Below are positions 7,305-53,466 of a stretch of 64,000 bases of DNA, in pieces (position 1 is the first letter of the stretch; the number at the start of each line of letters is the position of its first letter). This stretch comes from Mesorhizobium shangrilense (GTDB taxonomy: Bacteria > Pseudomonadota > Alphaproteobacteria > Rhizobiales > Rhizobiaceae). Position numbers and translations under genes: made by a program. A model generated the notes under the pieces. The model was not told the origin of the DNA. It saw only the letters and a list, made by a program, of their open reading frames with translations, and ran no database searches. The DNA lies in the NCBI RefSeq assembly GCF_028826155.1, contig NZ_JAQGPN010000004.1, forward strand, positions 62,001-126,000, read 5' to 3'.

Positions 7305-7330
7305 CGTTTAGATCGATGCGGCGCGCCACA

Positions 7331-10925: not shown

Positions 10926-10979
10926 TGATCGTTCATCGCTCGCGCATCCCCAGGGCTTCATTCCCAAGAAGGGCTGCAG

Positions 10980-11294: not shown

Positions 11295-11333
11295 CCGAAA
11301 CGGCCGCAATACCAGATAGAGTGGAGGAAAGCG

Positions 11334-12200: not shown

Positions 12201-12209
12201 GGCGCGGAC

Positions 12210-13046: not shown

Positions 13047-13048
13047 CA

Positions 13049-13072
13049 GCAACCCCCGCATGCGGGGGTTGC
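13049..13072. terminator. Palindromic intrinsic terminator
   Basis: A perfect 24-bp palindrome, with half-site GCAACCCCCGCA at 13049-13060, follows the amidohydrolase stop. It folds into a strong GC stem with short flanking T-rich sequence, separating this operon from the IclR gene. Confidence 0.7.
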
Positions 13073-13147
13073 CCATCGCATGGCAAATGGTGTGTTGTCT
13101 GGCGCGATTGCCCCCCGGGGCGCTGCATGAAACGGAGCGACGGAACG

Positions 13148-14056: not shown

Positions 14057-14079
14057 TCCCGCCGTTTGGCGATCGCGAC

Positions 14080-14103
14080 GCCCGGTCCTTGGCCGGGCTT
14101 TCA
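14080..14103 (+). terminator. Intrinsic terminator after the IclR gene
   Basis: GCCCGG (14080-14085) and CCGGGC (14093-14098) form a six-pair stem with a seven-base loop, followed by TTTC. It lies 24 bases after the IclR stop. Confidence 0.6.
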
Positions 14104-14130
14104 GGTGCAAGTATGCGTCGCCTATAAGTA

Positions 14131-14184
14131 TTATATTTCCCGAAATAAGAATTGAATATTTGCGCAAAATGGGAAATGCGAATA
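14131..14184 (+). promoter_or_regulatory. AT-rich promoter of the tctAB fusion gene with operator (site 3 of 3)
   Basis: An AT-rich island in an otherwise GC-rich sequence holds TTATAT (14131-14136), 17 bases and GAATAT (14154-14159), a weak promoter by comparison with the consensus. AATGGGAAATGCG at 14168-14180 is identical over 13 bases to the site at 10909. An additional inverted arm ATTTCCC (14135-14141) faces GGGAAAT (14171-14177). The leader to the ATG at 14355 is about 180 bases. Confidence 0.5.
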
Positions 14185-14354
14185 ATATCCGTGTGAAGGG
14201 CTTGGAGGAGACGAACCGATCCACCCGACAAATGGTTCGCGACAGGCTGGGCCAGATCCAGCCTCAACGGAGGGGAGCCGGCGCCCGGCTGACGCGCTGA
14301 CGTAGGGCGGTTGCCTTGCGCGGCGGCAGGCGGGGAGCGCAGGCAGAAGACAAC

Positions 14355-16343: not shown

Positions 16344-16497
16344 CCGGTCGGAGGCCGGCGGCCCCATCCCGCTCCCGGCTTCGAAACAGATAGCGATCGG
16401 CATTGCCCGATCATTCCAGTCGCGGTTTCTGGGCGCCGTTTCACGCCGGAGCCCGCCCGCCAATCAACGCACACATCTTTTTGGAAGGAGCCGTCGG

Positions 16498-37341: not shown

Positions 37342-38064
37342 TCACACCAGTTCGCAGGCTTTGATCTTCGAAATCAGGCCCTTTGCCGACGGAACCACCC
37401 GTCCGAAGTTAAGCGCGAAGGAGCGAAGCGTCGCTTCGTGGATCGACGCTTCGTAGTCGGCCGTGGCATCTTCGACCACCACGCAGTCGTACCCGCGATC
37501 AGCCGCATCCCTGGCCGTCACGTCGATGCACGCGCTTGTGATCACCCCGGTTATGATCAGGCTGGCTATGCCCATGCGCTGCAGGATCGAATCCAGCGCG
37601 CTCCCGTTGAATGCCCCGTTCGTCGTCTTCTGGACGACGGTCTCCCCGGCGAGAGGACGCAGTTCCTCCAATATCTGGAAATCGGGATTCTGGGACCACC
37701 AGATGTCCTGGACGCCCGCCGCGCGCTCCAGATTGCGTGTCCAGGTCCGGAACCTCGGCGGACAGTCGCGCAGATCGCGATAGTCTGATCCGAGGGTCAG
37801 GTGGATCACCTGCATTTCCTCAGACCGGAAGAACTCCAGCAATTCCTTGATCGCGGGCACGGTCTGCGTGCGGAGCCGGTTCGAATAGTAGTCCATCGAA
37901 CCCGGCGAGATCCGCTCGAAGGCGAGCGTCAGGCCGTGGTCCGGAGAGGCGTCGTGGTACTGCATGTCGATGATCAGCAGCGCAAGCCGCTCCCGCGCCG
38001 ACAGGTCCACCGAGGGCACGAGGTCGCTGAACTCTATCGTCGCGGTCTTGTCGGAATGGTTCAT
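37342..38064 (-). CDS. Isochorismatase-family cysteine hydrolase
   Basis: The 240-residue protein shows the family triad: Asp33 in LLIIDMQ, Lys146 in VVQKTTNGAF and Cys179 in TSACIDV. A cis-peptide region precedes the cysteine (GVITSACI). Members hydrolyse amides or carbamates such as nicotinamide, N-carbamoylsarcosine and ureidoacrylate. It is the last gene of the minus-strand operon and its start overlaps the permease stop by four bases. It probably hydrolyses the amide imported by the ABC system. Confidence 0.85.
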   Translation of the reverse strand: MNHSDKTATIEFSDLVPSVDLSARERLALLIIDMQYHDASPDHGLTLAFERISPGSMDYYSNRLRTQTVPAIKELLEFFRSEEMQVIHLTLGSDYRDLRDCPPRFRTWTRNLERAAGVQDIWWSQNPDFQILEELRPLAGETVVQKTTNGAFNGSALDSILQRMGIASLIITGVITSACIDVTARDAADRGYDCVVVEDATADYEASIHEATLRSFALNFGRVVPSAKGLISKIKACELV

Positions 38065-38855
38065 CGTAGTTCCTCCGTTCTGTCACGCATCAGAAGCCGC
38101 GTGCCAATGAGAACGAGGCAGATCGACAGGCCGACGGTGATTGTGGCGATGGCATTGATCTCGGGCGTGATGCCGGTCCTGAGCATGGACCAGATGTGCA
38201 TCGACAGCGTGTTCTGCGCCCCGGTGAGGAAGATTGTGACGGGAAGTTCGTCGAAAGACAGCGTGAAAACCAGAAGGGCGCTGCCGATCACCGAGGTGCG
38301 GATCAGCGGCAGCGTGACGAGGAAGAACGTCTGCAACCGGTTGGCGCCCAGGTCGTGGCTAGCTTTCTCCAGGTTCTGATCCATCCGCGTCAGACGCGCA
38401 TGCACCTGGGTCACCACGATCGGCATCCATACCAAGCTTTGACCAGCGACGATGGTTGCAAGCGAGAGTTGGACGCCGAGCCGGTTGAAGGCCACGAGCA
38501 GCGCCAGGCCGGTGATCATCTGCGGCACGATCAGCGGGAGCAGGAACGTCCGCTCCAGAAAGCGCCCGAACGCTCCCCTCATCACGCGCAGCCCCAGCGC
38601 CAACGGGACGCCGACGCACACGGTCACGCATACGCAGGACGTGGCGACGATCAGGCTGTTGATGATCGCCTGCTGGATTTCGTGGTTGGCGGCCAGTTGC
38701 CGGTACCAGTGCAGCGACCAGTCGCCGAGCGGCCAGGCGAGGACGCGGCTACTCTGGAACGAAAACACGACGAGCACGGCGATGGGAAGGTAGAGGAAAA
38801 GAAAGATCAGGCCCGCCGCCAGGCCGAAAATCCGTGCTGGCCAGCGCCTGCTCAT
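38061..38855 (-). CDS. ABC importer permease, PotC-like
   Basis: The 264-residue inner-membrane protein has about six hydrophobic segments, starting IFGLAAGLIFLFLYLPIAVL, and the EAA loop KASHDLGANRLQTFFLVTLP. It resembles the second permease of spermidine/putrescine importers. I chose the ATG at 38855, which overlaps the preceding permease stop in ATGA. It also overlaps the hydrolase start by four bases, showing tight translational coupling. Confidence 0.87.
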   Translation of the reverse strand: MSRRWPARIFGLAAGLIFLFLYLPIAVLVVFSFQSSRVLAWPLGDWSLHWYRQLAANHEIQQAIINSLIVATSCVCVTVCVGVPLALGLRVMRGAFGRFLERTFLLPLIVPQMITGLALLVAFNRLGVQLSLATIVAGQSLVWMPIVVTQVHARLTRMDQNLEKASHDLGANRLQTFFLVTLPLIRTSVIGSALLVFTLSFDELPVTIFLTGAQNTLSMHIWSMLRTGITPEINAIATITVGLSICLVLIGTRLLMRDRTEELR

Positions 38856-39736
38856 TCTCCGCTCCGTGCTCTGCCGGCCATATTCCCGAGCCGTTGCGAG
38901 AACGTCACCAGCGCCACCACCACACACAGCACGCCGATGGCGAGCGCGCTGCCGAACGGCCAGTCGAAGGCCGCGCCGAACTGGGAGATGACGACATTGG
39001 CGATCATGATGTCGTCGCTTCCGCCGAGGAGCGCCGGGGTGATGAAATCTCCGAAAGACAAGCAGAACACGATCGTCACGCCGGATAAAAGGGCGGGAAC
39101 GCTGAGCGGGAACACGACGTGGAAGAAGGTGGCCAGGGGAGGCGCCCCGAGATCGCCGCTGGCCTCGACATATTCCCGGGGAATCCGCTCCAGCGCCGCG
39201 TAGACCGGCAAGGCGACGAAGGGCAGGAAAATGTATGTCAGCGCGAGACAGATTGAAAACTGGTTGTAGAGAAGGAACGACAGCGGCTGTTCAATGACGC
39301 CGGCAGCCATCATCGCCGTGTTGAGGATGCCGTTGCGCCCGAGGATGATCTTCCAGATATAGGCGCGCAGGAGGAAGCTGGTCCAAAGCGGAATCATGAG
39401 CAGCGCTAGGAGTAGGAACTGCCACCGTCGCGCATAGGTCGCCATGAAGTAGGCCAGCAGGTAGCCGAGCACCGACGAGGCCAGGGTGACATAGGCCGCC
39501 GTCGCCAAGGAGTTGGAGACGACCTGCGAATAGACGCTGCGGGCGAAGATTCGTTCGTAATTGGTGAAGGAGAAGGCCGGACGTATCGAATAAAGGTCTT
39601 TCTCCCAGAAGCTCATCACGCCGACATTGGCGTAGGGCAGCGCGATGAAAAGGAGGGCATAGGCGGCGACGGCCACCGCCGACAACCATCCGATGCGCGC
39701 TTGCGAGAACAGGCCCTGGCCCTGCATGCTGCTCAT
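38852..39736 (-). CDS. ABC importer permease, PotB-like
   Basis: The 294-residue protein has six hydrophobic stretches, beginning WLSAVAVAAYALLFIALPYA, and the EAA loop EASGDLGAPPLATFFHVVFP. It is the first permease of a polyamine-type (PotABCD/PotFGHI) importer. It overlaps both the ATPase gene upstream and the PotC-like gene downstream by four bases. Confidence 0.88.
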   Translation of the reverse strand: MSSMQGQGLFSQARIGWLSAVAVAAYALLFIALPYANVGVMSFWEKDLYSIRPAFSFTNYERIFARSVYSQVVSNSLATAAYVTLASSVLGYLLAYFMATYARRWQFLLLALLMIPLWTSFLLRAYIWKIILGRNGILNTAMMAAGVIEQPLSFLLYNQFSICLALTYIFLPFVALPVYAALERIPREYVEASGDLGAPPLATFFHVVFPLSVPALLSGVTIVFCLSFGDFITPALLGGSDDIMIANVVISQFGAAFDWPFGSALAIGVLCVVVALVTFSQRLGNMAGRARSGE

Positions 39737-40833
39737 TGCCGCGCGGGGTTGGCGAACACCGGCGCTGAAACCGGAACCCTGATCGCGACCGGACGTCCGA
39801 CGTGATCTGAAATTCCGCCAGGAAGGCGGTCGTGGCGCTCGTCGATGTCGATCCTCTGACCGTCCGCCAGAGTCAGTATTAGCTTGTGACTCTCGCCGAG
39901 GAACAGGATCTCGTCGAGGACGCCCGTGAGTTCGTTCGCGGCGCCGGCTGGCTGGAGCGCTATCTCCAGCGTCCCCGGTCGGACGACGATCCTAACCCGC
40001 TGCCCGGTCGTCATGCTCCCGGTCGGGGGATCGAGGCTTAGTCGCTCGCCGTTGGCCGTCTCCACGACCAAGGCGTCCCGCCCCGATTGCACGACCGTGC
40101 CTTCCAGCCTCACGGACGCGCCGACGAACTCCGCCACGAACAACGATGCGGGTTGCGAGAATATCTCGGCAGGAGTGCCGATCTGCATCACGGAGCCCGA
40201 TTCCATCACGGCGATGCGGTCGCTCATGACCATCGCCTCGTCCTGGTCGTGCGTGACGAATACGAAGGTTGTGCCGGTCTCCCGCTGCGTGCGCTTCAGT
40301 TCCAATTGCAGGCTCTTGCGGAGTTTGGCGTCGAGCGCCGACAGCGGCTCGTCCAGAAGTAGGACCTGCGGCTGCTTGATCAAGGCGCGGGCCAGGGCCA
40401 CGCGCTGCATCTGGCCGCCGGACAGAACGGTGGGTTTGGCGGAAAACCTGTCGGCCAATCCGACGCGCGCGAGCATCTCTTCCGCGCGCTTCAACCGGAC
40501 AGGCTTGGCGACGCCATCGAATCTGAGACCGTAGGCGACGTTCTCGCCGATCGTCATGTGGGGGAACAATGCATAGCTTTGGAACACGGTGTTGACGTTG
40601 CGCTTGTGCGCCGGGACGCCATTCATGCGGCGGCCGTCGATATAGACGTCGCCCTCGGTGGGCTCCTCGAAGCCGCTCACGATGCGCAGCGTGGATGTCT
40701 TTCCGCACCCGCTGCCCCCGAGCAGGGTGAGAAACTCACCCTGCTCGACGTCAAGGTCCAGCCCATCGAGCGCGGTGACCGCGCCGTGGCTTTTCCGGAT
40801 GCCGACCAGCCGGACAACCGCGTCGGAGGTCAT
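39733..40833 (-). CDS. ABC importer ATP-binding protein, PotA-like
   Basis: The 366-residue ATPase has Walker A (GGSGCGKTS), signature LSGGQMQR, Walker B (LLLDEP), the D-loop SALDAKLR and the switch VTHDQDE. A C-terminal TOBE domain follows (about residues 270-350). Its start overlaps the binding-protein stop by four bases and its stop overlaps the PotB-like start. It powers uptake by the operon's importer. Confidence 0.9.
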   Translation of the reverse strand: MTSDAVVRLVGIRKSHGAVTALDGLDLDVEQGEFLTLLGGSGCGKTSTLRIVSGFEEPTEGDVYIDGRRMNGVPAHKRNVNTVFQSYALFPHMTIGENVAYGLRFDGVAKPVRLKRAEEMLARVGLADRFSAKPTVLSGGQMQRVALARALIKQPQVLLLDEPLSALDAKLRKSLQLELKRTQRETGTTFVFVTHDQDEAMVMSDRIAVMESGSVMQIGTPAEIFSQPASLFVAEFVGASVRLEGTVVQSGRDALVVETANGERLSLDPPTGSMTTGQRVRIVVRPGTLEIALQPAGAANELTGVLDEILFLGESHKLILTLADGQRIDIDERHDRLPGGISDHVGRPVAIRVPVSAPVFANPARQ

Positions 40834-41888
40834 TCGGCGGCCGCCGCCTTGATCTCGTTGAAAACCTCCAAGTATTTCCCGCGTTCCGGAATCTCTTCCC
40901 AGAACCGGATGGAGTTACGGAACTCGGTATCGCTTTCCATGATCGTGCCCTGCAGCGCGCCCGCCGGCAGGTGATCCTTGATGGCGGGCACGGTGACGCC
41001 AAAACCGCTTTTCTGCTGCAGTTGCGCGAGCACGTCCGGTCGAAGCATGTAGTTGAGGAATTCATGCGCCAGATCCATGTTCCGGCTACCCTTCACGATG
41101 AAATGCGAGTCGACCCAGCCATTCGGATTTTTCGGCGCGCATTGGGACGCGGCGACTCCTTCGGCCTTGAGCGCCTGCGTGACGTAGCTCCATGAGTTCG
41201 TCGCAACGACTTCGCCGCTCGTGAAGAGTTCAATGATCTCGCCGCCCGTCGACCAATAGCGGCGAATGAGCGGCTTCTGTTCGAGCATCTTCGCCTTTAC
41301 GCGGGCAAGCTCCTCGTCCGTCATCGTCCAGATGTTCTCGATGCCGAGATAGGTGGCGACGTCTCCAAGCGTCGACACGTCGTCCCACATCGCGATCCGT
41401 GCCTTGTATTGCGGATCGAACAGCAGGTCGAAACTGCATTCCTTGACCACGTCGGTGTTGAAGGTAATCGGCTGGATATCCCAGAATGTAGGCACGCCGA
41501 ACTGCTTGTCTCCCGACTTCAGAAACGCGACATTGGCGAATTCCGAATAGATGTTCGAGAAATTGGGAAGCTTCGAAAGATCGAGAGCTTCCACGAAACC
41601 CGCGTTGATGGCGGTTTCAGCAAGCGAGGATACGATGACGACCGTGTCGTAGCCGCTGTTGCCCGCCGCGAGCGCAGCCATGTATTCGTCGTTGGACCCG
41701 ACATAGGTGCGCTTGACGGTTACGCCGTGCTCTTCCTCAAACGGCTTGATCCATGCGTCGTCGGCAAGGCCTTCCCAGGTCAGTATGCGAAGCTCCGCGG
41801 CTCCCGCCTGGAGGCTTCCCAGGCAAAGCGCAAGCCCTGCTGCGCAGCCGGCGAGGAACCGACGCATTGCGCCCGCCTTGTTTGTCAT
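40830..41888 (-). CDS. ABC importer substrate-binding protein, PotD/PotF-like
   Basis: The start is the ATG at 41888, with AAGGGG seven bases upstream. The 352-residue protein has a Sec signal peptide (FLAGCAAGLALCLGSLQAGA) and the family opening ELRILTWEGLADDAWIKPFE. Spermidine/putrescine-binding proteins share this form, but relatives bind other cationic or amide ligands. The hydrolase at the end of the operon hints at an amide-containing ligand, which is inference. It is the first gene of the operon. Confidence 0.87.
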   Translation of the reverse strand: MTNKAGAMRRFLAGCAAGLALCLGSLQAGAAELRILTWEGLADDAWIKPFEEEHGVTVKRTYVGSNDEYMAALAAGNSGYDTVVIVSSLAETAINAGFVEALDLSKLPNFSNIYSEFANVAFLKSGDKQFGVPTFWDIQPITFNTDVVKECSFDLLFDPQYKARIAMWDDVSTLGDVATYLGIENIWTMTDEELARVKAKMLEQKPLIRRYWSTGGEIIELFTSGEVVATNSWSYVTQALKAEGVAASQCAPKNPNGWVDSHFIVKGSRNMDLAHEFLNYMLRPDVLAQLQQKSGFGVTVPAIKDHLPAGALQGTIMESDTEFRNSIRFWEEIPERGKYLEVFNEIKAAAAE

Positions 41889-41928
41889 CGAGATCCCCTT
41901 CTTGTTGTCAGACCTGAGTCGCCCCGAT

Positions 41929-41940
41929 GGTCGCACGACC
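41929..41940. promoter_or_regulatory. Palindrome between the PotD-like gene and the XRE regulator
   Basis: GGTCGCACGACC has perfect GGTCG/CGACC arms around a two-base centre. It lies 41 bases upstream of the binding-protein start and 78 bases upstream of the regulator start. This is a plausible operator for the divergent XRE-type protein; evidence is symmetry and position only. Confidence 0.35.
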
Positions 41941-42017
41941 CAAATACCCTCACAATGAAGATGACAGGCGTGCGGTGACGTGATCTGGTGCAAGGAAAGC
42001 GACAAAGAGCGACACAC

Positions 42018-42827
42018 ATGGCATCAAGCGATCTCCCTGCCAACCTGAAGCTTCTATGCAGCTACGCCCCGTCGATCAAAGCGGCATGCGCCCGCATGGG
42101 CATGAACCGGCAGCAATTCCATCGCTATTTGTCCGGCGACGCGGAGCCGTCCCTGCAGGGCCTGCGCAAAATCGCCGACCATTTCGGCCTCGACGACGCG
42201 GAGCTGCTCTACGATCACGAACGGTTCCGGCAACTCGTCGCCATCAAGCGGCCGATCAGCGGAGCCTTTTCGTCGGTTTCAGCGCGGGCCCGGGAAATCC
42301 TGATGCTGAATGCCGAAAGCCGGGAACGGCTGATCCATCACACAGGCTACTACCATAACTATTTCTGCCCAGCGGAATATCCGGGGATGATCCTGCGAGG
42401 GCTGATCCGCGTCTTCGAGGAGGACGGCATCGTTTTCAGTCGCAACTTCGAACGCTATCCGAGCGATAGGAGCCGCTACACCAAGAAATTCAACGGCATC
42501 TTCGTGCATTCGGGCGACCGCGTCCTGATGTTCGAACGCGAAATGGCGGTCGGTAAGATGGCTTGGCTGACCGTGCTCTACCCGCATGACCGGGACCAGC
42601 CGTCGCTTCTGACGGGCCTGTCGCTCGGCATCACAAGCTCATCGCAGCGCGACATCGCCTGCTACCGCGTGATCTTGCAGCACCTGGGGGAGCGGATAGA
42701 CATGCGAACCGCATTAGGCCGATGTGGTCTCTACGATAAGGATGACTCTAGAATAGATCCAGCAATTGCAACCCGCGTCCGCAACGAGATGAGGCCCGAC
42801 GAGTTCGCATTCTCCGTTCGAGCTTGA
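42018..42827 (+). CDS. XRE-type helix-turn-helix regulator with sensing C-terminus
   Basis: The ATG at 42018 gives 269 residues; an in-frame GTG at 41988 is possible. The N-terminal XRE helix-turn-helix (IKAACARMGMNRQQFHRYLSG then GLRKIADHFGLDD, about residues 14-55) is followed by a 200-residue region that I do not recognise. That region contains HTGYYHNYFCPAEYPGM and may bind a ligand. It is divergent from the polyamine-type importer operon, which it probably regulates. Confidence 0.78.
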   Translation: MASSDLPANLKLLCSYAPSIKAACARMGMNRQQFHRYLSGDAEPSLQGLRKIADHFGLDDAELLYDHERFRQLVAIKRPISGAFSSVSARAREILMLNAESRERLIHHTGYYHNYFCPAEYPGMILRGLIRVFEEDGIVFSRNFERYPSDRSRYTKKFNGIFVHSGDRVLMFEREMAVGKMAWLTVLYPHDRDQPSLLTGLSLGITSSSQRDIACYRVILQHLGERIDMRTALGRCGLYDKDDSRIDPAIATRVRNEMRPDEFAFSVRA

Positions 42828-43196: not shown

Positions 43197-43721
43197 TTAG
43201 CTGGGTCGGCGATAAGCGCTCCAGAACCCGATGTGAGGCTTTCTTGCCTCCTCCTCCAGGAGTGGGCCGGTGACAGCAGTCTCATGCGATCCACCGGCAG
43301 CAAACACTTCTCTGCAGGACAGTTTGAGCACGGCCGGATTTTCGCGGCCCTGGGTCGTGATGCCATAGAGCCCCTCCTCGGAGAGCCCGTAGACGACGGT
43401 CCGAATCCCCGCCCAGAACGTCGCGCCGGCGCACATCGCGCAAGGTTCGGTGCTCGCATACATCACGGTCTGCCGACGCTCCTCAGCGCTAAACCGCCTG
43501 CATGCCTCGCTGATCAGGTTCAACTCCGCATGGGAAGTCTCGTCGTTGTCTTCCGTGACCGTGTTCTCGGCTTCCAGGATGATGGTTCCGTTCCGATCGA
43601 CCAGGATGGCCCCAAACGGGTGGTTGCCCTTTTCTCGCGCATTTTGGGATAGATCGATTGCCCGGCGCAACAGTGCGGCGTGATCGAGATCGGACAAGAC
43701 GTCTTCGCTTGGGTTCTGCAT
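43197..43721 (-). CDS. Zinc-dependent nucleoside/base deaminase (CDA superfamily)
   Basis: The 174-residue protein has the deaminase zinc motif HAE (His64, catalytic Glu66) and PCAMC (Cys94, Cys97), and the opening NHPFGAILVD typical of guanine deaminase, TadA and adenine-type enzymes. It would deaminate a purine or pyrimidine ring amino group. It is the last gene of the importer operon, 76 bases after the binding-protein gene. The nearby 6-oxopurine-type MtnP protein makes a purine or purine nucleoside the likeliest substrate (inference). Confidence 0.83.
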   Translation of the reverse strand: MQNPSEDVLSDLDHAALLRRAIDLSQNAREKGNHPFGAILVDRNGTIILEAENTVTEDNDETSHAELNLISEACRRFSAEERRQTVMYASTEPCAMCAGATFWAGIRTVVYGLSEEGLYGITTQGRENPAVLKLSCREVFAAGGSHETAVTGPLLEEEARKPHIGFWSAYRRPS

Positions 43722-43797
43722 GGGTTGGTCTCCGCACAGCGTTGGATCAGACCTTGTGGATGATGTGGGCGCCGGCTGAAGACGACGCCCATCCGGC

Positions 43798-44823
43798 CTA
43801 TTTGGACTTCACGCCGGGATTGAAGTCGTTGGTCATCACTTCCGACGCTGGGATGACGCGCGGGACCTGGCCATTCTCGTGGTAGAACCGCATCTGCTGT
43901 TCCCAGACCTCCGGCTGCATCCAGAGAAAGCCCTTCTCCTGGGTGTCTGCGCTGGCGTTCAAGCCGTTCTGGACCTGCAAGCTCCAAGCGAGCTTGTCGA
44001 TCGTGTCCAGCTGTCCCTCATACGCCGCGGACAGCTTCGCGGTTTCCTCTGGATTCTCCTGCATGAATTGGAGTCCGCGAGCGACCGCCCTGAGGAATTT
44101 GCGAGTAAGTTCCGGCTTCTCCTTGAGGGTGGCGTTGGTCGCGAAAATAAGATCGTTGTAGGAGGGAACGCCATGGTCCGATAGAAGCAGGGCTTTCCAG
44201 GTCTTGCCCTTCAGGTTCTCGGGCGCGTCCGGCTTTGCTGCTTCCAGTTCGAATTGATAGGGCTGATTGTGCACATGGCCGGAGATGAAGTCGACGGCGC
44301 CTGTCAGCAACGGTTCAAGCCCGCCCTGCACAACCTGGATATTCATCTTCGACATATCGAGATGATTTTTCTCTGCGACGCCCTTCAAGAATATCTCGCC
44401 GTCGGTCTGGATACCGATGGTCTTTCCTTCCATGTCCTTCGGCGTCGGATCCGGGTCCGTGGAATTGACGAGCGTGATGTAGGCATAGGGCGATTTCTGG
44501 CGAATTGCACCGATCGCCACCACATCGACGGGATCGGGCGCAACCCGAGCCGAGAAGATGAAGGTGCCTCCAGTGATGCCAAAGTCGGCCTGCCCTGCGC
44601 CGACTGTCGACACTGGATTCTTGCCCGGACCACCGTCGAGCAATTGGAGCTTCAGGCCCTCGTCCTTGAAGTAGCCATTGACATCGGCCGCATACAGCGG
44701 AGCGTATTGCGCGTTGCGCAGCCATCCGAGCGAGACCGTTACTTCGGTATCAGCGGATGCAATGCTGACCGATGCGGCGAGTGAAGCCGCGGCGACCATG
44801 GATGCAAGCCAGTGCCTTGTCAT
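43798..44823 (-). CDS. NMT1/THI5-type ABC substrate-binding protein
   Basis: The 341-residue protein has a Sec signal (ASMVAAASLAASVSIASA) and the NMT1/THI5 features VSLGWLRNAQYAPLYAADVN, GYFKDEGL and GAGQADFGITGG. Relatives bind pyrimidines, purines, riboflavin precursors, nitrate or taurine. The family binds planar rings in many cases, compatible with a nucleoside or base ligand suggested by the regulon. It is the third gene of the minus-strand operon, 42 bases after the permease. Confidence 0.85.
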   Translation of the reverse strand: MTRHWLASMVAAASLAASVSIASADTEVTVSLGWLRNAQYAPLYAADVNGYFKDEGLKLQLLDGGPGKNPVSTVGAGQADFGITGGTFIFSARVAPDPVDVVAIGAIRQKSPYAYITLVNSTDPDPTPKDMEGKTIGIQTDGEIFLKGVAEKNHLDMSKMNIQVVQGGLEPLLTGAVDFISGHVHNQPYQFELEAAKPDAPENLKGKTWKALLLSDHGVPSYNDLIFATNATLKEKPELTRKFLRAVARGLQFMQENPEETAKLSAAYEGQLDTIDKLAWSLQVQNGLNASADTQEKGFLWMQPEVWEQQMRFYHENGQVPRVIPASEVMTNDFNPGVKSK

Positions 44824-44865
44824 TTCATTCCTCCCGTTGTTGATTTCCGCTATCGTGCAGCGACA

Positions 44866-45699
44866 TCACCTCCTCGTGCTGGAATTGCTCTCCCAGTCGA
44901 GGCGTGAGCCGAAATGGTGGATGAGGGTGTAGGCGCCGAAGGACATGAGCGCAGCGGTCAGCGCCACCGCATAGACCAGGTCTCCCCGATACTGCATCAT
45001 GCCCTGGTTGATCACATAGCCGAGGCCGGTCCTGGAAATCATCCACTCGACCGCGATCGCGACCACGATGCTTGCGCTGCCGGTGATCTCCTGGGCAGCG
45101 ACGATGTACGGAATCGAATAGGGAAACCGCACCTTCGAGAAAACCTGCCACCAGGATGCGTCGAGGATGCGCATGCGGTCCAGCACGATGGTGTCGACCG
45201 CAAGCAGGCCCCGATAGGTGTTCACCAGCACAGGAAAGAAACCGGCGAGCGTCACCACAACGATCTTCGTGGCGATGCCGTCGCCCATGGCCAGCGCCAG
45301 CACAGTCACCAATGCCACGTAGGGAATATTTCGCAGCGTGATGGCAGCCGGCATGACGATCAGCCGCCCGACCGGAAAGCTGACGAACAGGATCGCCAGC
45401 CCGATGCCGACGACATTGGCCATGATAAAGCCGATGACCGCAACTTGCAGTGTGTACATCAGATGCAAGCCGATGAGCTGCCAGTCTCCGATCAATGCCT
45501 GCAGCACGCGCTCGGGGCGCGGCAGGACGAAGGCTGGCAGGCCCGACGAGTAGATCGCCAGGTACCAGATGCCTAGGATCGAAAGGATGGGCAGCGCGAC
45601 CCGGATGGCGATGCCGAAGACCCGCCGCCAGATACTACCGGTTTCCCGAATGTTCGGCATGGTGGTTGCAACTGCGGACTGTTCCTCTACGGCGCTCAT
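44866..45699 (-). CDS. ABC importer permease, SsuC/TauC type
   Basis: The 277-residue inner-membrane protein has about six hydrophobic segments (VALPILSILGIWYLAIYS near the start) and the conserved RILDASWWQVFSKVRFPYSI docking loop of the nitrate/sulfonate/THI5 permease family. Its start overlaps the ATPase stop by four bases. Confidence 0.87.
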   Translation of the reverse strand: MSAVEEQSAVATTMPNIRETGSIWRRVFGIAIRVALPILSILGIWYLAIYSSGLPAFVLPRPERVLQALIGDWQLIGLHLMYTLQVAVIGFIMANVVGIGLAILFVSFPVGRLIVMPAAITLRNIPYVALVTVLALAMGDGIATKIVVVTLAGFFPVLVNTYRGLLAVDTIVLDRMRILDASWWQVFSKVRFPYSIPYIVAAQEITGSASIVVAIAVEWMISRTGLGYVINQGMMQYRGDLVYAVALTAALMSFGAYTLIHHFGSRLDWESNSSTRR

Positions 45700-46451
45700 G
45701 CGGCTGCTCCCTGGCGTTCGAAAAGCAATCCACGCAGATGCGTCGTGATGTCGACGAAGAGTGGATCGCTGCGGAAGCTGCTTCGGCGCGGCCGCGGCAC
45801 CGGGATGACGACGTCCTCTCGGATGCGGCCGGGAGCAGCGGAAAAAACAATGACGCGATCGGCCAAAAGCACCGCCTCGTCGATGTGGTGGGTAACGAAC
45901 AGCACGGTCCGCGGCCGCACACTGAGTTCACGGCTGAACCATTCGCCAAGTTCTTCGCGCTTCAACTCGTCGAGCGCCGAGAAGGGCTCGTCCATCAGGA
46001 GAAGCGCTGGATCATGGGCGATTGCGCTGGCGCAATTGACGCGCTGCAGCATCCCTCCGGAAAGCTGCGACGGCCGCTTCATTTCGTGCCCGGCGAGGCC
46101 AAAGTCGTCCAGGAGCTTTTCGGCCGGCAGACCGGCCTTTCCTGCGATGCGCTGAGTGAAACGAACGTCATCCAGCGCGCGCTTCCAGGGAAGGACCGCC
46201 GGTCGCTGGGATACGAGACCGAACATCTTCTTGCGCCTGGCCTGCAACGGGGGCTCTCCTCCCACGAGGACGGAACCTGTGCTCGGCGTCTCGAGATCAG
46301 CGACGATCCGCAACAGTGTGGTCTTGCCGCATCCCGACGGGCCGACCAAGGCGATGAACTGCCCAGCCTCGATGTCGAGGTCTACGGTTGAGAGAGCCGT
46401 GGTGGGGCCGAACGACCGGCTTACCCCGCGGATAGAGATCGGAACAGACAT
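45696..46451 (-). CDS. ABC importer ATP-binding protein, SsuB/TauB type
   Basis: The 251-residue ATPase shows Walker A (GPSGCGKTT), signature LSGGMLQR, Walker B (LLMDEP) and the switch VTHHIDEA, and lacks a TOBE domain, as usual for this importer class. It is the first gene of the operon. The 37-bp element at 46590-46626 lies 139 bases upstream of its start, mirroring the arrangement at 50301-50337. Confidence 0.9.
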   Translation of the reverse strand: MSVPISIRGVSRSFGPTTALSTVDLDIEAGQFIALVGPSGCGKTTLLRIVADLETPSTGSVLVGGEPPLQARRKKMFGLVSQRPAVLPWKRALDDVRFTQRIAGKAGLPAEKLLDDFGLAGHEMKRPSQLSGGMLQRVNCASAIAHDPALLLMDEPFSALDELKREELGEWFSRELSVRPRTVLFVTHHIDEAVLLADRVIVFSAAPGRIREDVVIPVPRPRRSSFRSDPLFVDITTHLRGLLFERQGAAA

Positions 46452-46589
46452 TGCGCTGGCTCCCGGTTGGGGCGGAATGAGCCGTTCCCGAGGCCCTCAT
46501 TCTCCGCCGGACATGGTGGATCGCGTTTCAGCTTGCCGTGGACTCGGGCTGTCGGACCATCTCTTTCGAAAACTATTGCCTAAAGAGGT

Positions 46590-46626
46590 CGTTGCCGATA
46601 GTGCTATTTAATCGACATCTTGTTGC
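46590..46626 (+). promoter_or_regulatory. 37-bp repeated regulatory element, copy 1
   Basis: CGTTGCCGATAGTGCTATTT begins the element and CGACAT and GTTGC end it. It matches the copy at 50301-50337 at 32 of 37 positions, in the same orientation. It contains the ATAG-TG-CTAT inverted repeat. It lies 139 bp upstream of the minus-strand importer operon (start 46451) and 41 bp upstream of the divergent LysR gene. It is the probable LysR binding site. Confidence 0.65.
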
Positions 46627-46666
46627 TATTTTTGGATCGGCTCCCTCCAGAGAGCAAGGACAGGCG

Positions 46667-47614
46667 ATGAAGGTGGAACTTTCGCCCGCGCGGATGGCGG
46701 AGGCGATCTATTCGCGATCGCTGATCTATTTCGCATCTGTCGCCGAAACGGGTTCGATCCGGGAAACGTCGCGCCGGCTGAATGTCGCCCCTTCTGCCGT
46801 CAGCCGCCAGCTTGTCCACCTTCAGGAGCGGCTCGGGGTCAAGCTGTTCGACAATCTGGGACATTCACTTCGCCTTGCCCCGGCCGGACAAGAATTGCTC
46901 CAATACTATCGGTCGATCGTCGAGAATCTCGACGTCACGGTGGGGGCTATCAGCGCTCTGCACGGTTATCGGACCGGAACCGTGCGTATTGCCACGGTGG
47001 ACAGCTTCGCAACAGGCGCGCTCGCACAACTCATTGGCGAATTTTCGGCTGCCTTTCCGTCGATCCAGATTTCGTTGTCGATCCACTCGGCCGTCGATGT
47101 GGCAGCCCATGTAACCGACGGGCTGGCCGATATCGGATTCACATTCAACCTGCGCAGCCGCGAAACGCTGGATGCGCTGTTCAAGGCGGACTGTCCGATG
47201 GGGGTCATCGTGGCGGCGAGCCATCCCCTCGCGTCCAAGGCGATCGTGACCTACGAGGAATGCGTTGCCTATCCTATAGGACTGTTGAAACCGGGTTCAT
47301 CGATCCGCTCGGCATTGGAGCGCGCATCGGCATCGGCTGCCATGCCTTGGCCGAAATATGTCGAGGCCACGTCGATGCGGTTTCTGGAGGAACTGGCAAG
47401 AACTGGGCGTTTTGTCACCTTCCAACCGCGTTACCGCTTCATGTCTGACTTCCGGAAAGGAACGCTCGTTTTCGTGCCGATTGACGACACAACCAAGGAT
47501 AGCGACGAATTCGTCATGGTGATCGATCGCCGACTCAACCTGCGGCCGGCGCCTGCCGAGTTCGCCCGATTCGCAGGGCGTTATCTTGCGGAGCTCGCCG
47601 CAATGGCCGGATGA
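46667..47614 (+). CDS. LysR-family regulator of the nucleoside-salvage regulon
   Basis: The ATG at 46667, preceded by AAGGAC, gives 315 residues. The winged helix-turn-helix (about 16-75: YFASVAETGSIRETSRRLNV, then PSAVSRQLVHLQERLG) and a LysR effector domain (about 100-300) are both intact. It is divergent from the NMT1-type importer operon and convergent with the aldolase operon. A near-identical 37-bp element precedes both operons, so this protein probably controls both. Its inducer may be the imported nucleoside or a sugar-phosphate product (inference). Confidence 0.85.
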   Translation: MKVELSPARMAEAIYSRSLIYFASVAETGSIRETSRRLNVAPSAVSRQLVHLQERLGVKLFDNLGHSLRLAPAGQELLQYYRSIVENLDVTVGAISALHGYRTGTVRIATVDSFATGALAQLIGEFSAAFPSIQISLSIHSAVDVAAHVTDGLADIGFTFNLRSRETLDALFKADCPMGVIVAASHPLASKAIVTYEECVAYPIGLLKPGSSIRSALERASASAAMPWPKYVEATSMRFLEELARTGRFVTFQPRYRFMSDFRKGTLVFVPIDDTTKDSDEFVMVIDRRLNLRPAPAEFARFAGRYLAELAAMAG

Positions 47615-47644
47615 CGTTCCATCGGCATGGAGGTCAGGCCGGTC

Positions 47645-48307
47645 TCAGCACTGCGGCAAGGGCTTCTGCTGTCCGTAGGTTCGATGCTTCTCGATGACCT
47701 CGGCAATAGCCTCTGGGGAAAGGCGCGGCGGATCGCCCATCGGTAGACACAGAAGATAGAGCGTCGCCAACTCCTCGACGATTTCCGCCATGCTAAGAGC
47801 GCCGGCCAGGTTGGCATGAGCGGCAATCACGCCGTGATGGGCGAGCAGGCAGGCTTGCCGACCCTCCATCGCCTCCACTGCCAAGTCGGCCAACTGCTGC
47901 GTTCCGAAGGTGGCATAGCCCGCGCAGCGGATGTTTGGGCCGTGGGCAGCGGCGATCCGGTAATGAATGGGCGGGATTTCGTGGCCCAGGATGGAGACCG
48001 CCGTCGCCTTCAGCGAATGGGTGTGGACGATGGCGTTGAGATCGTCGCGGCGGTTCAGGATATCCCGATGGAATCGCCATTCGCTGGACGGCAGCATGTC
48101 GCCGTCGAAACTGCCGTCCCAGCGCATGCGGACGACCTGCTCCGGTTGCAGCGTTTCGTAGGCAACGCCTGTCGGTGAAATCAGGAAGCCATCCTCCACA
48201 CGAACACTGACATTCCCGGACGTGCCCTTGGCGAGGCCCTTCTGCTGCATACCGCGGCATGTCTCGACGAGAGCACGGCGCAGTTCCATTTCGTCAATGC
48301 TTGTCAT
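47645..48307 (-). CDS. Class II aldolase (fuculose-phosphate/deoxyribulose-phosphate type)
   Basis: The 220-residue protein has the class II aldolase motifs: phosphate-binding GTSGNVSVR near 28-36, catalytic Glu in SSEWRFH, the zinc ligands VHTHS and the downstream LLAHHGV. With MtnA- and MtnP-like neighbours it matches the aldolase (Ald2) of the DHAP shunt, which cleaves 5-deoxy- or 5-methylthioribulose-1-phosphate to dihydroxyacetone phosphate and an aldehyde. It is the last gene of its operon, 48 bases after the phosphorylase. Confidence 0.82.
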   Translation of the reverse strand: MTSIDEMELRRALVETCRGMQQKGLAKGTSGNVSVRVEDGFLISPTGVAYETLQPEQVVRMRWDGSFDGDMLPSSEWRFHRDILNRRDDLNAIVHTHSLKATAVSILGHEIPPIHYRIAAAHGPNIRCAGYATFGTQQLADLAVEAMEGRQACLLAHHGVIAAHANLAGALSMAEIVEELATLYLLCLPMGDPPRLSPEAIAEVIEKHRTYGQQKPLPQC

Positions 48308-48355
48308 GCTTGGCGCCTCGTCTCCCGTTTGGTGTTTCCAGCGTGCTAGGCGAGT

Positions 48356-49111
48356 TCAGGCGCCCACGCTGGGCTGAGCGGCAAAAACCGCGAGGATTTT
48401 CACGACACGCTCGAACGCAACGAGACGGGTCCGAGTGATCTCTTCGCGGCTGATTGCGTGCTTGCTGTCTCCCAGGCCGGCCGCGGGGTTGACGATCGGG
48501 CAGATCGCTGCGTACTCGATCCCGAGCTCGCGCGCGAGCGCCGCCTCCGGCATGCCGGTCTGGCCGACCAGGTCGCAGCCATCCTTCGCAAGCCGCGCAA
48601 TCTCCGCTGCAGTTTCCAGCCGCGGCCCGTTGAAACAGCCGTAGCAGCCACCGTCATGGACCTTCTCCCCTGCAGCCTCGGCAGCCGCGATGATACGCCG
48701 ACGCACCACCTCCGAATAAGGCGCCGTGAAATCGATATGGCGCACCGGTTCACCGTTGGTGCCGTCGAAATAGGTGCTCTCCCGATCGTAGGTGTAGTCA
48801 ATGATCTGGTCCGGTACGACAAACACGCCCGCCCCGAACTCCTGACGGATACCGCCGCTGGTCGCGATCGAGAGAATGTGAGTGACGCCAAGTTCCTTAA
48901 GCGCCCAGATGTTGGCGCGGTAGTTGATCTTGTGCGGTGCGAGTGCGTGCGGGTTGCCATGTCTCGGGAGGAAAGCAATCTCCCTGCCGCCGCACAGGCC
49001 GATCGAGACGGGGCCGGAGGGATCGCCGAATGGCGTGGACACCTTTTCCTCGCGTATCGATTCCATGTTCGGCAAGCTGGTGAGTTGGGTGCCGCCAATG
49101 ACTGCGTCCAT
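48356..49111 (-). CDS. MtnP/MTIP-like purine nucleoside phosphorylase
   Basis: The 251-residue protein belongs to the MTA phosphorylase/purine nucleoside phosphorylase family: LPRHG (phosphate site, near 48-52), PHKINYRANIWALKELGV, DQIIDYTYDRESTYF and NGPRLETAAEI. At the position where MTA phosphorylases have the adenine-contacting Asp (TDYD), it reads VNPAAG with Asn208. That pattern is found in S-methyl-5'-thioinosine phosphorylase and PNPs that prefer 6-oxopurines. It would split a 5-deoxynucleoside into base and ribose-1-phosphate derivative, the substrate of the next enzyme. Confidence 0.82.
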   Translation of the reverse strand: MDAVIGGTQLTSLPNMESIREEKVSTPFGDPSGPVSIGLCGGREIAFLPRHGNPHALAPHKINYRANIWALKELGVTHILSIATSGGIRQEFGAGVFVVPDQIIDYTYDRESTYFDGTNGEPVRHIDFTAPYSEVVRRRIIAAAEAAGEKVHDGGCYGCFNGPRLETAAEIARLAKDGCDLVGQTGMPEAALARELGIEYAAICPIVNPAAGLGDSKHAISREEITRTRLVAFERVVKILAVFAAQPSVGA

Positions 49112-49130
49112 GCTGTGGATCTCCCTCTGT

Positions 49131-50168
49131 CTAAAGATGTTGTGCTGGAAAGCTCTGCGGCAGCGCCGCAGCTGCGAATATGCCGCGCTCGGTGACGACG
49201 CCCGAAACCAGTTCGGGCGGAGTCACGTCGAAAGCCGGGTACCAGCCTTTGGCGAGCGGACTGGCGGTGCGGATACCCAGGCAATACAGCGTTTCATCGC
49301 CGTCGCGTTCTTCGATCGGAACATCGGCCGGGGTGGGCGCCTTGGGGTCGGGCCTGAGGACCGTGGCGAAATAGGGCACCTTGAAGTGACGCGCCGCTAT
49401 GGCCGCGTTGAGCGTACCGACCTTGTTGATGACGTGACCGCTCATCGTCACCCGATCGGCCGCCGTCATCAACATGCTGACGCGGCCGCTTGCCATGGCA
49501 TGCGCGACCATGCCATCCGCGATGACCGTGGTGTCGATGCCCATCTCGGCAGCGCTGTGGGCGGTGAGGCGTGCGCCCTGCAGATAGGGTCGGGTTTCGG
49601 TGCATAGCAGTTCGATCCGCTTGCCCTCATCCTTGGCTGCGGCAAGGGTTTCGAGCAACGCGCCCTCAGACCAGCAATGGGTCAGAATGCGTTCGCCGTC
49701 CGCAACGAGCGAATTGGCGTGCCGGCCGACTGCGCGCGCCTGGCTGCGCCGCCCCTCCCACTGATCCAGCACGAATTTCTCGACAGCGTCCGCGAAACCG
49801 TTGCCGGCGGCGTGTTCCTCGGCGAATACAAGAATCGATCGGATGGCGGTGGAAATGTTGTTGTTGGTCGGGCGCGTCCTGACCAGTCTCGCACCGGCAG
49901 CCTTCATCATGTGGAGGCGGCGCACGGGATCGCGCTCGCGCTCAGCTGCACGGGCCTCGAGCACCATTCCGCCCCCCGCGGCATAGAAGGGCCCATTGCT
50001 CTGGGTCACCATCTGCTCGATTGCGATCGCGACCTCTTCATGGTTCGCGCAGACGACGAATTCTTTCGAGAAGGGAAAGACGCGACGATCCAAGATGCGC
50101 ACTGCGCCGGAGTCGAGAAGGACGCTTTCAACGTACAGGGTCGGGAGGGTCGTCTTGCGCTGCAACAT
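49131..50168 (-). CDS. MtnA-like (methylthio/deoxy)ribose-1-phosphate isomerase
   Basis: The 345-residue protein has the MtnA/eIF2B-alpha fold with the catalytic pair in place: Cys165 in ILTHCW and Asp238 in TAADRV. The substrate-binding RPTNNN and C-terminal VINKVGTLNAA also fit the family. It would convert 5-methylthio- or 5-deoxyribose-1-phosphate to the ribulose form. The usual HCNAG is HCWSEG, so substrate preference may differ from classical MtnA. It is the first gene of the operon with MtnP-like and aldolase genes, and a 37-bp element lies 133 bases upstream. Confidence 0.83.
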   Translation of the reverse strand: MLQRKTTLPTLYVESVLLDSGAVRILDRRVFPFSKEFVVCANHEEVAIAIEQMVTQSNGPFYAAGGGMVLEARAAERERDPVRRLHMMKAAGARLVRTRPTNNNISTAIRSILVFAEEHAAGNGFADAVEKFVLDQWEGRRSQARAVGRHANSLVADGERILTHCWSEGALLETLAAAKDEGKRIELLCTETRPYLQGARLTAHSAAEMGIDTTVIADGMVAHAMASGRVSMLMTAADRVTMSGHVINKVGTLNAAIAARHFKVPYFATVLRPDPKAPTPADVPIEERDGDETLYCLGIRTASPLAKGWYPAFDVTPPELVSGVVTERGIFAAAALPQSFPAQHL

Positions 50169-50300
50169 TCTTTTCCCCCAATTCGGCCGCAGGTCCGGCC
50201 CGGCCGTCCATCAAAGGCCGGCGCGATGGCTGGAAGGGCTTGTGAAGCTCGCAACAGGAGATCCCGCTTGCGAACACCTGAACCATATCGGCATCCGAGC

Positions 50301-50337
50301 CGTTGCCGATAGTGCTATTTGGCCGACATGTCGTTGC
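50301..50337 (+). promoter_or_regulatory. 37-bp repeated regulatory element, copy 2
   Basis: This repeats the 46590-46626 element at 32 of 37 bases, in the same orientation. It lies 133 bp upstream of the MtnA-like start at 50168, against 139 bp for copy 1 and its operon. The matching orientation and distance show that both operons are set up for the same regulator, most likely the LysR protein at 46667. Confidence 0.65.
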
Positions 50338-50447
50338 CAAGAAGAGGACACGAAACGGCAACACCCCGGTCTTTTTCTCGATCCTGCCGAAAGGTTGACC
50401 CGCGAGCACCAGATGCCCTTCGCAGAGGCGCCTAGTGCGCCTGACCG

Positions 50448-50900
50448 GTGGCCGAGCGCCTTGCCGATCTCACGCGCGGCGTCGATGACGTCGGCGGAGA
50501 AGGCTTGCACCTGACGACGCTTCATCCGGCTGTCCGGCCCGGGCATACCGATGGCACCGACCAGTCCGCCGCTCCCGTCGAGCAGTGCGCAAGCAACAGC
50601 CGCAATGCCTTGGCGCCACTTCCCGTGATACACTGCGGAATAGCCCTGGAGCCGATCAACTCGATATTCTTGGGGAGGTCTCCAAAAACGCCTTCGAGGT
50701 TTGCGTGAACTACTGGAAATGCCCTTCAAATCGCTCGAGGTAGTCGTCTGGCATCTGGGCGACCATTGCCTTGCCAGCCACGGCCCAAGCCGGAGCGCGA
50801 GAATCGCCACTGGTGTGCGCCCGGATATGGGCCAGGACCAGATTGCCGACCATCGCTCCTTCGTAAGCGAAGGTTCATCTCGAACGGGCCCGGTTCGGCG
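50448..50900 (-). pseudogene. IclR-family regulator remnant
   Basis: Two minus-strand pieces in different frames belong to one IclR effector domain. An upstream piece (about 50854-50713) reads MVGNLVLAHIRAHTSG, then WAVAGKAMVAQMPDDYLERF, and ends at a stop. A downstream piece (about 50650-50448) reads GIAAVACALLDGSGGLVGAI and FSADVIDAAREIGKALGH. The helix-turn-helix is not seen. Frameshifts and stops rule out a working protein. The boundaries are approximate. Confidence 0.6.
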
Positions 50901-51317
50901 CGGCTGCAAATTTCGACACGTGGTGACGATACGTGCGTTTTGCCTTCGCATGGCGTAGCAGTTGCAAGTCTGCTCACGGCATAAGTCTGCGCCCAACCCA
51001 TGCCGAACGAATGGCAATTTGGAACCATTTCCGAAGCGCTATGAGCGAGGGGCAATTGGTCGGTAGCGGAACGGCAGCTATACATTGGCTACAGCTAGAA
51101 CCGGACTGTCCGGAGACGGCCCCTGAGTTGCCGAGCAGCAACGCGCCCTCTATTGGGTCCTTCAGGACCCCTCAGCGGTTTCCTGCAAGCGGCCATTCGC
51201 CTGAAGCACGCGGAGGGACAACATGGGGCGGTTGCGTATGGGAAGCTGACGAACGTCGTTCGTGACAGCGGACAATGTTTGCCTGAACGCTTCCCTTAAC
51301 TTCGTGCTGTTGATCAT
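50901..51317. other. Intergenic region without recognisable features
   Basis: Short open frames on both strands lack ribosome binding sites and family resemblance. This is part of the decayed zone between the nucleoside regulon and the SDR genes. I see no repeats or RNA genes. Confidence 0.5.
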
Positions 51318-52727: not shown

Positions 52728-53466
52728 TTGGAAAAGACACACGCTGGACAGGTTGCGGTCATCAACGGTGGAGCTGCGGGCACAGGATTGGCCGTCACCA
52801 AAAAGCTCGCCGAATGCGACGCCAAGCTTTCCATCTGGGACCTCAGCGAGAAGGCCAATGCTGAAGCCCGCGCCATTTTTCCTGACGCACCGTTTCTGCA
52901 GGTCACTCTCGCTGACTACGCGTCCGTCGAGGCTGCCACCAACGCCACCGAGAGCCATTGTGGCCGCATCGATATCGTCGTGAACTCGGCCGGCATCGCT
53001 GGCAAGAACACCCCCTCGATGAGTATGAGCTCGCCGAATGGCAGCGGGTTATCGATATCGATCTCACCGGCGCGTTCCACGTCAACCGTGCCGTGCTGCC
53101 GGGAATGAAGGCGCGGGACCACGGCCGCATCGTCAACATTGCCTCCATCGCCGGTAAAGAGGGCAATCCCAATGCCAGCGCCTATGCGGCCGCGAAAGCT
53201 GGCGTGATCGCCACGACCAAGGCGGTCGGCAAGGGATGCGCGAAGTACAATATCTCATCAACGCCGTGGCGCCCGCGACAGCCAAGACGGGCATCCTCAA
53301 CGAGCTCAAGCCCGAATTCATCGACTACATGCTCAGCCGTATCCCGCGGGGCCGTTTCCTTGAGGTCGAGGAGGCCGCCAGCATGATCGCGTGGCTCGTC
53401 AGCGCCGAAAACAGCTTTACCACCGCCTCGGTCTTTGACCTGTCCGGCGGCTGCGCAACCTACTGA
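52728..53466 (+). pseudogene. SDR-family oxidoreductase with two frameshifts, first gene of the operon
   Basis: From a TTG at 52728 the product starts GQVAVINGGAAGTGLAVTKK and reaches [11 protein letters not shown] shift at about 53011-53015, in a run of five Cs where six are needed, leads to [26 protein letters not shown] and YAAAK (catalytic residues present). A second shift at about 53243 leads to [14 protein letters not shown] and SVFDLSGGCATY, ending at 53466. All SDR parts are present in order, so it is a recent pseudogene or reflects sequence errors. The next gene starts 14 bases later. Confidence 0.72.

Follow-up and report, generated by a model that had tools for sequence, protein, structure and literature searches.

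A probable two-operon LysR regulon for the uptake and breakdown of external purine nucleosides in Mesorhizobium shangrilense

We analyzed a 64,000-nucleotide stretch of DNA from Mesorhizobium shangrilense (this whole stretch is called the window), in which a gene for a LysR-type regulator lies between two operons. These genes probably form a plasmid-borne LysR regulon for the uptake and breakdown of external purine nucleosides. Because the window's contig is approximately 164 kb long and encodes the RepC replication protein, it is taken to be a plasmid. In the proposed scheme, an NMT1-type ATP-binding cassette (ABC) importer and a ring deaminase, both encoded by the first operon, would bring in and process an external purine nucleoside. 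A phosphorylase of the second operon would split the 6-oxopurine nucleoside into the base and pentose-1-phosphate, an MtnA-like isomerase would convert pentose-1-phosphate to ketopentose-1-phosphate, and a class II aldolase would cut the latter into dihydroxyacetone phosphate (DHAP) and a two-carbon aldehyde. The nucleoside would thus be converted to DHAP without a phosphopentomutase or a kinase, and LysR would sense a pathway compound and act at a near-identical site before both operons. What we computed is which families the genes belong to, the site common to both operons, its occurrence beside LysR orthologues and the repeated association with importers; the ligand, the reactions and their order, and LysR binding are inferred. 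The scheme covers two narrower versions, one for 5′-deoxy- or methylthio-nucleosides and one for plain nucleosides. What was a guess about two adjacent operons thereby becomes a regulon hypothesis that can be tested, with its candidate binding sites specified.

The shared site is a 36-bp sequence upstream of both operons: GTTGCCGATAGTGCTATTT, three free bases, CGACAT, three free bases and GTTGC. Both copies are on the strand opposite to the target operon, in equal orientation to the target and at a similar distance from it (Table 1). The initial annotation did not describe this site, yet the region that it delimits ends at 50337, exactly where the second copy ends. The 36-bp pattern matched the window twice and matched none of 100 shuffled sequences. 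Across the whole 5.5-Mb genome, the 23-bp core with up to three mismatches was found only at the two known copies, and the backwards control gave no match. Therefore, a chance origin of the shared site was rejected. A relaxed pattern, built from sites already seen, was then run on five genomes, and its backwards control gave no match in all five. In Rhizobiales bacterium 65-79 (G131), one site was found 70 bp before mtnA. In a Rhodobacterales metagenome-assembled genome (MAG; G778), there were two distinct sites, one before mtnP and one between the LysR gene and mtnA. A third match in G778 was discarded as a duplicate: the contig that carries it begins with 137 bases that are identical to the end of the other contig. 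In two further genomes (G870 and G779), where no relative of the window LysR was found in the cluster stretch examined, the relaxed pattern gave no site. When the five sites (two from the window, one from G131 and two from G778) were aligned, 20 of the 36 columns were invariant. The LysR orthologues share 70% (G131) and 72% (G778) identity with the window LysR and adjoin the same enzyme genes. Because the sites are present at orthologous LysR loci and none was found in the two genomes where no LysR relative was seen in the cluster stretch, the LysR protein is likely to be the binder of the 36-bp site. Shared control of the two operons had been proposed in the initial annotation; the near-identical site, found also at orthologous LysR loci, strengthens this proposal and supports the idea that the two operons are one regulon.

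All eight genes of the locus are open frames. Their order and strands, with two operons on one strand and LysR divergent from one and convergent with the other, match the earlier account and were confirmed by the frames and family searches. The importer operon (46451 to 43197, read leftward) encodes, in this order, the ATPase, the permease, the NMT1-type binding protein and the ring deaminase, and its ATPase and permease genes share 4 bases. The enzyme operon also runs leftward, from 50168 to 47645 (MtnA-like, MtnP-like and class II aldolase). The LysR gene is divergent from the former and convergent with the aldolase end of the latter. Canonical methionine salvage was considered for these genes and rejected; MtnB, MtnC and MtnD are not among the operon genes.

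Table 1 Genes and putative control sites of the LysR locus (positions in the window)
Feature	Position	Strand	Remarks
CDA-fold ring deaminase	43197..43721	-	PF00383; nucleoside/guanine deaminase-like; final gene of importer operon
NMT1/THI5-type substrate-binding protein (ABC importer)	43798..44823	-	PF09084, 153 bits
ABC permease	44866..45699	-	PF00528
ABC ATPase	45696..46451	-	PF00005; first gene of importer operon
Putative LysR operator 1	46591..46626	+	LysR/importer intergenic; 139 bp from ATPase start, 40 bp from LysR ATG
LysR-type regulator	46667..47614	+	PF00126 and PF03466 (scan began at 46679)
Class II (FucA-like) aldolase	47645..48307	-	PF00596, 172 bits
MTI-phosphorylase-like nucleoside phosphorylase (MtnP-like)	48356..49111	-	PF01048; Glu166, Asn208, Gln184, Arg222
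MtnA-like pentose-1-phosphate isomerase (putative)	49131..50168	-	PF01008; divergent sequence; first gene of enzyme operon
Putative LysR operator 2	50302..50337	+	133 bp upstream of MtnA-like start

A minus-strand frame just upstream of the enzyme operon (50211-51017) matches part of the IclR C-terminal domain (28.7 bits) and looks like a decayed regulator; the second control site lies partly or wholly within it.

The enzymes were compared with family models and solved structures. The MtnP-like protein scores 341 bits against NCBIfam PRK09136 (S-methyl-5′-thioinosine (MTI) phosphorylase; cut-off, 223). The MtnA-like protein passes the cut-offs of the broad models PRK05720 and TIGR00524 and is below that of the equivalog TIGR00512. 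One of its loops is 7 residues shorter than in solved MtnA, and it retains Cys and Asp at the positions that we take to be catalytic in MtnA. The solved chains nearest to the aldolase are L-fuculose-1-phosphate aldolases, although its score is below the fucA cut-offs; it scores 206 bits against FucA chains and 156 bits against structure 6btd, which we take to be DrdA. The deaminase has HAE and PCxxC motifs in its translation. Its top solved relatives are named CMP/dCMP-type zinc deaminases, guanine deaminases come next, and its top NCBIfam match is TadA at 63.6 bits, far below the 150-bit cut-off. The N-terminus of the binding protein resembles a signal peptide by eye. The initial annotation regarded the enzyme genes as the core of the DHAP shunt. 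The MtnA-type isomerase and the class II aldolase are indeed in the cluster; the third member is of the methylthioadenosine phosphorylase (MTAP)/MTI phosphorylase family but carries Arg at the 5′ pocket.

The phosphorylase residues bear on the substrate. Among solved structures, 3ozb gave the best alignment; it was deposited as a methylthioadenosine phosphorylase, and we take it to be the MTI phosphorylase of Pseudomonas aeruginosa. The window protein shares Glu166 and Asn208 with 3ozb, whereas archaeal MTAPs in the same alignment output have Ser and Asp. This Glu/Asn pair, which purine nucleoside phosphorylases (PNPs) also have and which is expected for a 6-oxopurine, is present in all 120 matches listed of 2244 homologues. 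We also take Arg222 of the window protein to map to Val233 of human MTAP. At this position, 3ozb has Met and the archaeal MTAPs shown have Ala, as we read the alignment; 3ozb further differs by Met at the position of Gln184. A published comparison places human MTAP Val233 in contact with methylthioribose; for the same pocket position it lists Lys254 of human PNP and, in the MTAPs of two parasites, Ala (PMC5738077). Judged from these alignments, the 5′ pocket position is variable, and the PNP in the published comparison is polar there. A hydrophobic residue is expected of a methylthio pocket; Arg222 is not such a residue. Because the Glu/Asn pair fits 6-oxopurine and not adenine, 5′-methylthioadenosine (MTA) and 5′-deoxyadenosine are unlikely to be phosphorylase substrates without prior deamination; together with the Arg at the methylthioribose-contact position, the pair makes the two compounds themselves unlikely. 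The initial annotation named these two compounds, and this part of it is weakened by the two residue differences. In P. aeruginosa, MTA is deaminated before phosphorolysis (PMC6302742).

To see how the pocket residue is distributed, we used a set of 127 sequences, namely the 120 listed homologues, the window protein, four proteins from other loci and two PNPs as the outgroup. In the 125 non-PNP sequences, the residue is Arg in 75, His in 2, a gap in 1 and another residue (Val, Leu, Met or, in two, Tyr) in 47. In a tree built after removal of the three diagnostic columns, the sequences with Arg, His or the gap all fall into a single clade of 78 members (FastTree support, 0.954), which contains no other sequence. 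Gln184 accompanies Arg in most but not all clade members, and listed relatives outside the clade have mostly Met. Because the residue at the 5′ pocket position is polar, the nucleoside probably bears a polar 5′ group (5′-hydroxyl or other) and not a methylthio or methyl group. Better suited than MTA or 5′-deoxyadenosine would be a 6-oxopurine nucleoside of this kind, which may be plain guanosine or inosine. Guanosine would be a natural candidate substrate if guanine or guanosine is what the deaminase converts.

The link between import and the MtnA/aldolase route, another part of the initial annotation, gains support from recurring gene neighbourhoods. We collected 31 loci with an MtnA-like protein, several of them short, and sought NMT1-type and nucleoside-type importers in them. 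An importer protein was found in the stretch examined in 6 of the 31: two loci (L009 and L010) have an NMT1-type protein, three (L012, L013 and L015) a Bmp-type one and one (L014) NupC. A class II aldolase of the ald2 kind was found in 12 of these loci, a relative of MtnP in 9 and MtnB in 6. Searches against protein families bore out the most important of these loci. NMT1-type binding proteins stand in the neighbourhood of MtnA in Pseudooceanicola, in a Rhizobiaceae MAG and on a Polaromonas plasmid. In the Pseudooceanicola locus, MtnA is accompanied by an NMT1-type importer, a uridine-phosphorylase-like enzyme, an amidohydrolase and an aldolase. In actinobacteria, Bmp-type and NupC importers adjoin MtnA relatives of 50-52% identity. 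For example, Brevibacterium album has MtnA, NupC, a PNP above its cut-offs and an aldolase, and in Planotetraspora, Sphaerisporangium and Microtetraspora (L012, L013 and L015) the Bmp importer and MtnA are found together with a nucleoside hydrolase, MtnC and MtnB. MtnK is in line in Sphaerisporangium (L013), and an MtnK-like gene is on the opposite strand in all three. These three appear as methionine salvage-like operons that carry their own importer. Like the window, they have a nucleoside-type importer in line with an MtnA relative; unlike them, the window continues with a phosphorylase and an aldolase.

The Polaromonas P1-6 plasmid record names a nucleoside deaminase, an S-methyl-5′-thioinosine phosphorylase, LysR and an ABC importer with an NMT1-type binding protein, and its aldolase and MtnA were detected by tblastn, each in two pieces. 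It thus has the same functional set as the window, the deaminase included, and the window deaminase is 49% identical to the PF00383 protein of this cluster. Because its LysR shares only 25% identity with the window LysR over part of the length, it is, by sequence, not an orthologue. In the MtnA tree, the proteins of the window, L004, L066 and Polaromonas, which stand beside an Arg-type phosphorylase, group together (92/94), but that of L007, which also stands beside such a phosphorylase, is outside. In this tree the copy on contig C1 was not used (wrong reading frame), the L018 row has a stop as X and the Polaromonas row is a fragment. Pseudorhodobacter L057 was not counted; its binding-protein match is a fragment of 16% coverage. 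As judged from sequence, importers of unrelated kinds have been paired with an MtnA-family isomerase more than once. This recurrence speaks for nucleoside import as a general function; on its own it does not identify the ligand.

The joint occurrence of the two operons was studied in 394 genomes from the same family as the window, an even sample of a larger group. With thresholds of E≤1e-60 for the phosphorylase and E≤1e-70 for the binding protein, both proteins occur in the identical two genomes, the window's own and G131. One G131 contig, which ends inside LysR, carries mtnA, mtnP, ald2 and LysR at 80, 85, 79 and 70% identity. Another, which ends inside the ATPase gene, carries the binding protein, permease and ATPase at 66, 69 and 85% identity. 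Under the window's gene order the two contig ends would meet, as if they had been split from it. The enzymes are rare: of 385 genomes of the class, only the window's own gave an MtnA match (E≤1e-70), and of 394 genomes in the family of G778, two gave an MtnP match at the same threshold, one being G778 itself. A plasmid search with the binding protein gave no match at 1e-40. Equal-sized contigs are listed for relatives of the binding protein and the phosphorylase (12278 and 27445) and for relatives of the binding protein and the deaminase (5220 and 3400); this suggests further pairs, although the sizes may agree by coincidence.

Several results weigh against a single nucleoside regulon. The deaminase was not found on the 9.7-kb G131 importer stretch (limit, 1e-5). 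The site before the importer operon is found only in the window; the G131 importer contig ends inside the ATPase gene. In the LysR-bearing G778, a MAG whose completeness is not stated, no importer orthologue was found at E≤1e-25, and because of this the importer may not be obligatory for the LysR/enzyme set. Among the 120 deaminase matches listed, the names are mixed and, where given, are mostly TadA or nucleoside deaminase, with one guanine deaminase. The solved relatives of the binding protein include pyrimidine-precursor binders.

Within the preferred reading, it is quite possible, if short of an even chance, that plain guanosine or inosine gives ribose-1-phosphate, which the MtnA-like enzyme would isomerize to ribulose-1-phosphate for cleavage to DHAP and glycolaldehyde, with guanine perhaps converted to xanthine. 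The polar 5′ pocket residue (Arg, and His in two clade members), the 6-oxopurine pair and the MtnA relatives that stand with NupC, PNP and aldolase in Brevibacterium and with a uridine-phosphorylase-like enzyme in Pseudooceanicola are consistent with this version. However, we know of no ribose-1-phosphate isomerase activity in the MtnA family, which counts against plain nucleosides. Moreover, by Pfam scan no gene for handling glycolaldehyde is within the two operons, the deaminase may not act on guanine, and MtnA relatives occur in the salvage-like actinobacterial operons. In the published alignment human PNP has Lys254 at the pocket position (PMC5738077), and haloarchaea convert guanosine to DHAP via a ribulose-1-phosphate aldolase, though through a kinase and a phosphatase (PMC9700705); both favour the plain-nucleoside version. 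In its most specific form we put it forward tentatively: imported guanosine or inosine would be split to ribose-1-phosphate, an MtnA-family enzyme would isomerize this directly to ribulose-1-phosphate, and aldol cleavage would yield DHAP and glycolaldehyde without phosphopentomutase, kinase or phosphatase, under one LysR switch, with the Arg-type clade as its marker. If the polar 5′ pocket does mean plain nucleosides, bacteria would have a short cut from ribose-1-phosphate to DHAP hidden under the annotation "methionine salvage", and the Arg-type phosphorylase clade would flag this route in other genomes.

The other version, in which the regulon scavenges 5′-methylthio- or 5′-deoxy-purine nucleosides in the inosine form by a phosphorylase-type DHAP shunt, appears doubtful. 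Its phosphorylase exceeds the MTI phosphorylase cut-off, its aldolase is FucA-like, and the actinobacterial MtnA relatives (49-52% identity) probably serve methionine salvage because they adjoin MtnC and MtnB. The E. coli precedent also grows on 5′-deoxynucleosides (PMC10986504). In contrast, the window protein has Arg222 and Gln184 where listed relatives outside the clade have mostly Val, Leu or Met and Met, respectively, and the Arg/His type is a single clade even without the diagnostic columns. In addition, contig C1 of the genome encodes a canonical MtnA, whose neighbours are a Bmp-type importer, an amidohydrolase and a PNP, and the Pfam scan found no adenosine-type amidohydrolase among the regulon genes. 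The pocket argument calls for caution, since the position varies among MTAPs too, with Ala in the two parasite enzymes (PMC5738077).

It is unlikely that the locus is two unrelated adjacent operons, with importer and deaminase for another heterocycle (thiamine pyrimidine, cytosine or guanine base) and enzymes for endogenous by-products: the pyrimidine-precursor relatives of the binding protein, the broad deaminase family and the G778 result fit such a pair, but the control site is unique to the two promoters, importer and phosphorylase are matched in 2 of 394 genomes, and a Betaproteobacterium (Polaromonas) has the same functional set with a different LysR.

The initial annotation knew of no description of a dedicated importer and deaminase that would turn the shunt to scavenging of external 5-deoxynucleosides; scavenging by the shunt was published for E. 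coli in 2024 and 2025, and transporter-linked clusters in 2018. E. coli with the DHAP shunt grows on external 5′-deoxynucleosides, and its shunt operon includes a putative transporter and is controlled by MtnR and CRP (PMC10986504, PMC12632272). The shunt of strain ATCC 25922 (mtnK-mtnA-ald2) shares with the window an MtnA-type isomerase, a class II aldolase, a gene for a transporter and a regulator of its own, and it draws on external nucleosides, as is proposed for the window. It differs in entry through nucleosidase and kinase, a regulator of the deoxyribonucleoside-repressor family, a single operon and a putative permease, whereas in the window a phosphorylase would be the entry enzyme, the regulator is of the LysR type, and a separate operon encodes an ABC importer and a ring deaminase. 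The 2018 report describes shunt clusters with phosphorylase or sugar transporters and proposes possible uptake of 5-deoxyribose from outside (PMC6079011). Its DrdK/DrdI/DrdA clusters for 5-deoxyribose disposal share with the window an isomerase and a FucA-like aldolase, and some are phosphorylase-led or have transporters; these are termed sugar transporters, however, and LysR is absent from the main text. The haloarchaeal non-carboxylating pentose bisphosphate pathway runs from guanosine to DHAP by a guanosine phosphorylase, a kinase, ribose-1,5-bisphosphate isomerase, a phosphatase and ribulose-1-phosphate aldolase (PMC9700705). The phosphorylase, the isomerase superfamily, the FucA-like aldolase and DHAP are common to it and our proposal, but it needs a ribose-1-phosphate kinase and a ribulose bisphosphate phosphatase, neither of which is among the seven operon genes, the only genes examined for them. 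In the open-access literature, outside which most subscription journals lie, we found no description of an ABC importer, a ring deaminase and a phosphorylase-type shunt under one LysR. The principle of scavenging through the DHAP shunt is not new; the regulon proposed here would be a variant with ABC importer, deaminase and LysR.

The same genome has other loci with related genes. On a second RepC-bearing contig (L037, C5:78000-97500), positions 6769-17165 encode an MtnK-like kinase, GntR, an MtnA-like protein (59% identity to that of the window), class I and III coenzyme A (CoA)-transferases, a class II aldolase and a thiamine pyrophosphate (TPP) enzyme. Much of this set recurs in Paenochrobactrum, Sulfitobacter and Pseudorhodobacter loci, and in G870 it adjoins mtnA-mtnP-ald2. 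The TPP enzyme of this CoA-transferase cluster (15615-17165) has a relative (64% identity over the matched part) after the Polaromonas NMT1 importer (L056, 16675-17430). Because a related TPP enzyme is present in both, the two cluster types are linked. Another nucleoside/MtnA locus (L038, C1:927500-946500; 1518-10585) consecutively encodes a Bmp-type importer (PF02608), an amidohydrolase, PNP, a frame like a short-chain dehydrogenase and a canonical MtnA that scores over TIGR00512. In the window, the region that adjoins the importer operon (37342-42827) has an isochorismatase-family gene with an ABC importer of the polyamine type, and a divergent helix-turn-helix gene; even with three mismatches allowed, the control site has no copy there. 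At 52728-53386 on the plus strand, a short-chain dehydrogenase is broken across two overlapping frames, which is probably a broken gene or a sequencing error.

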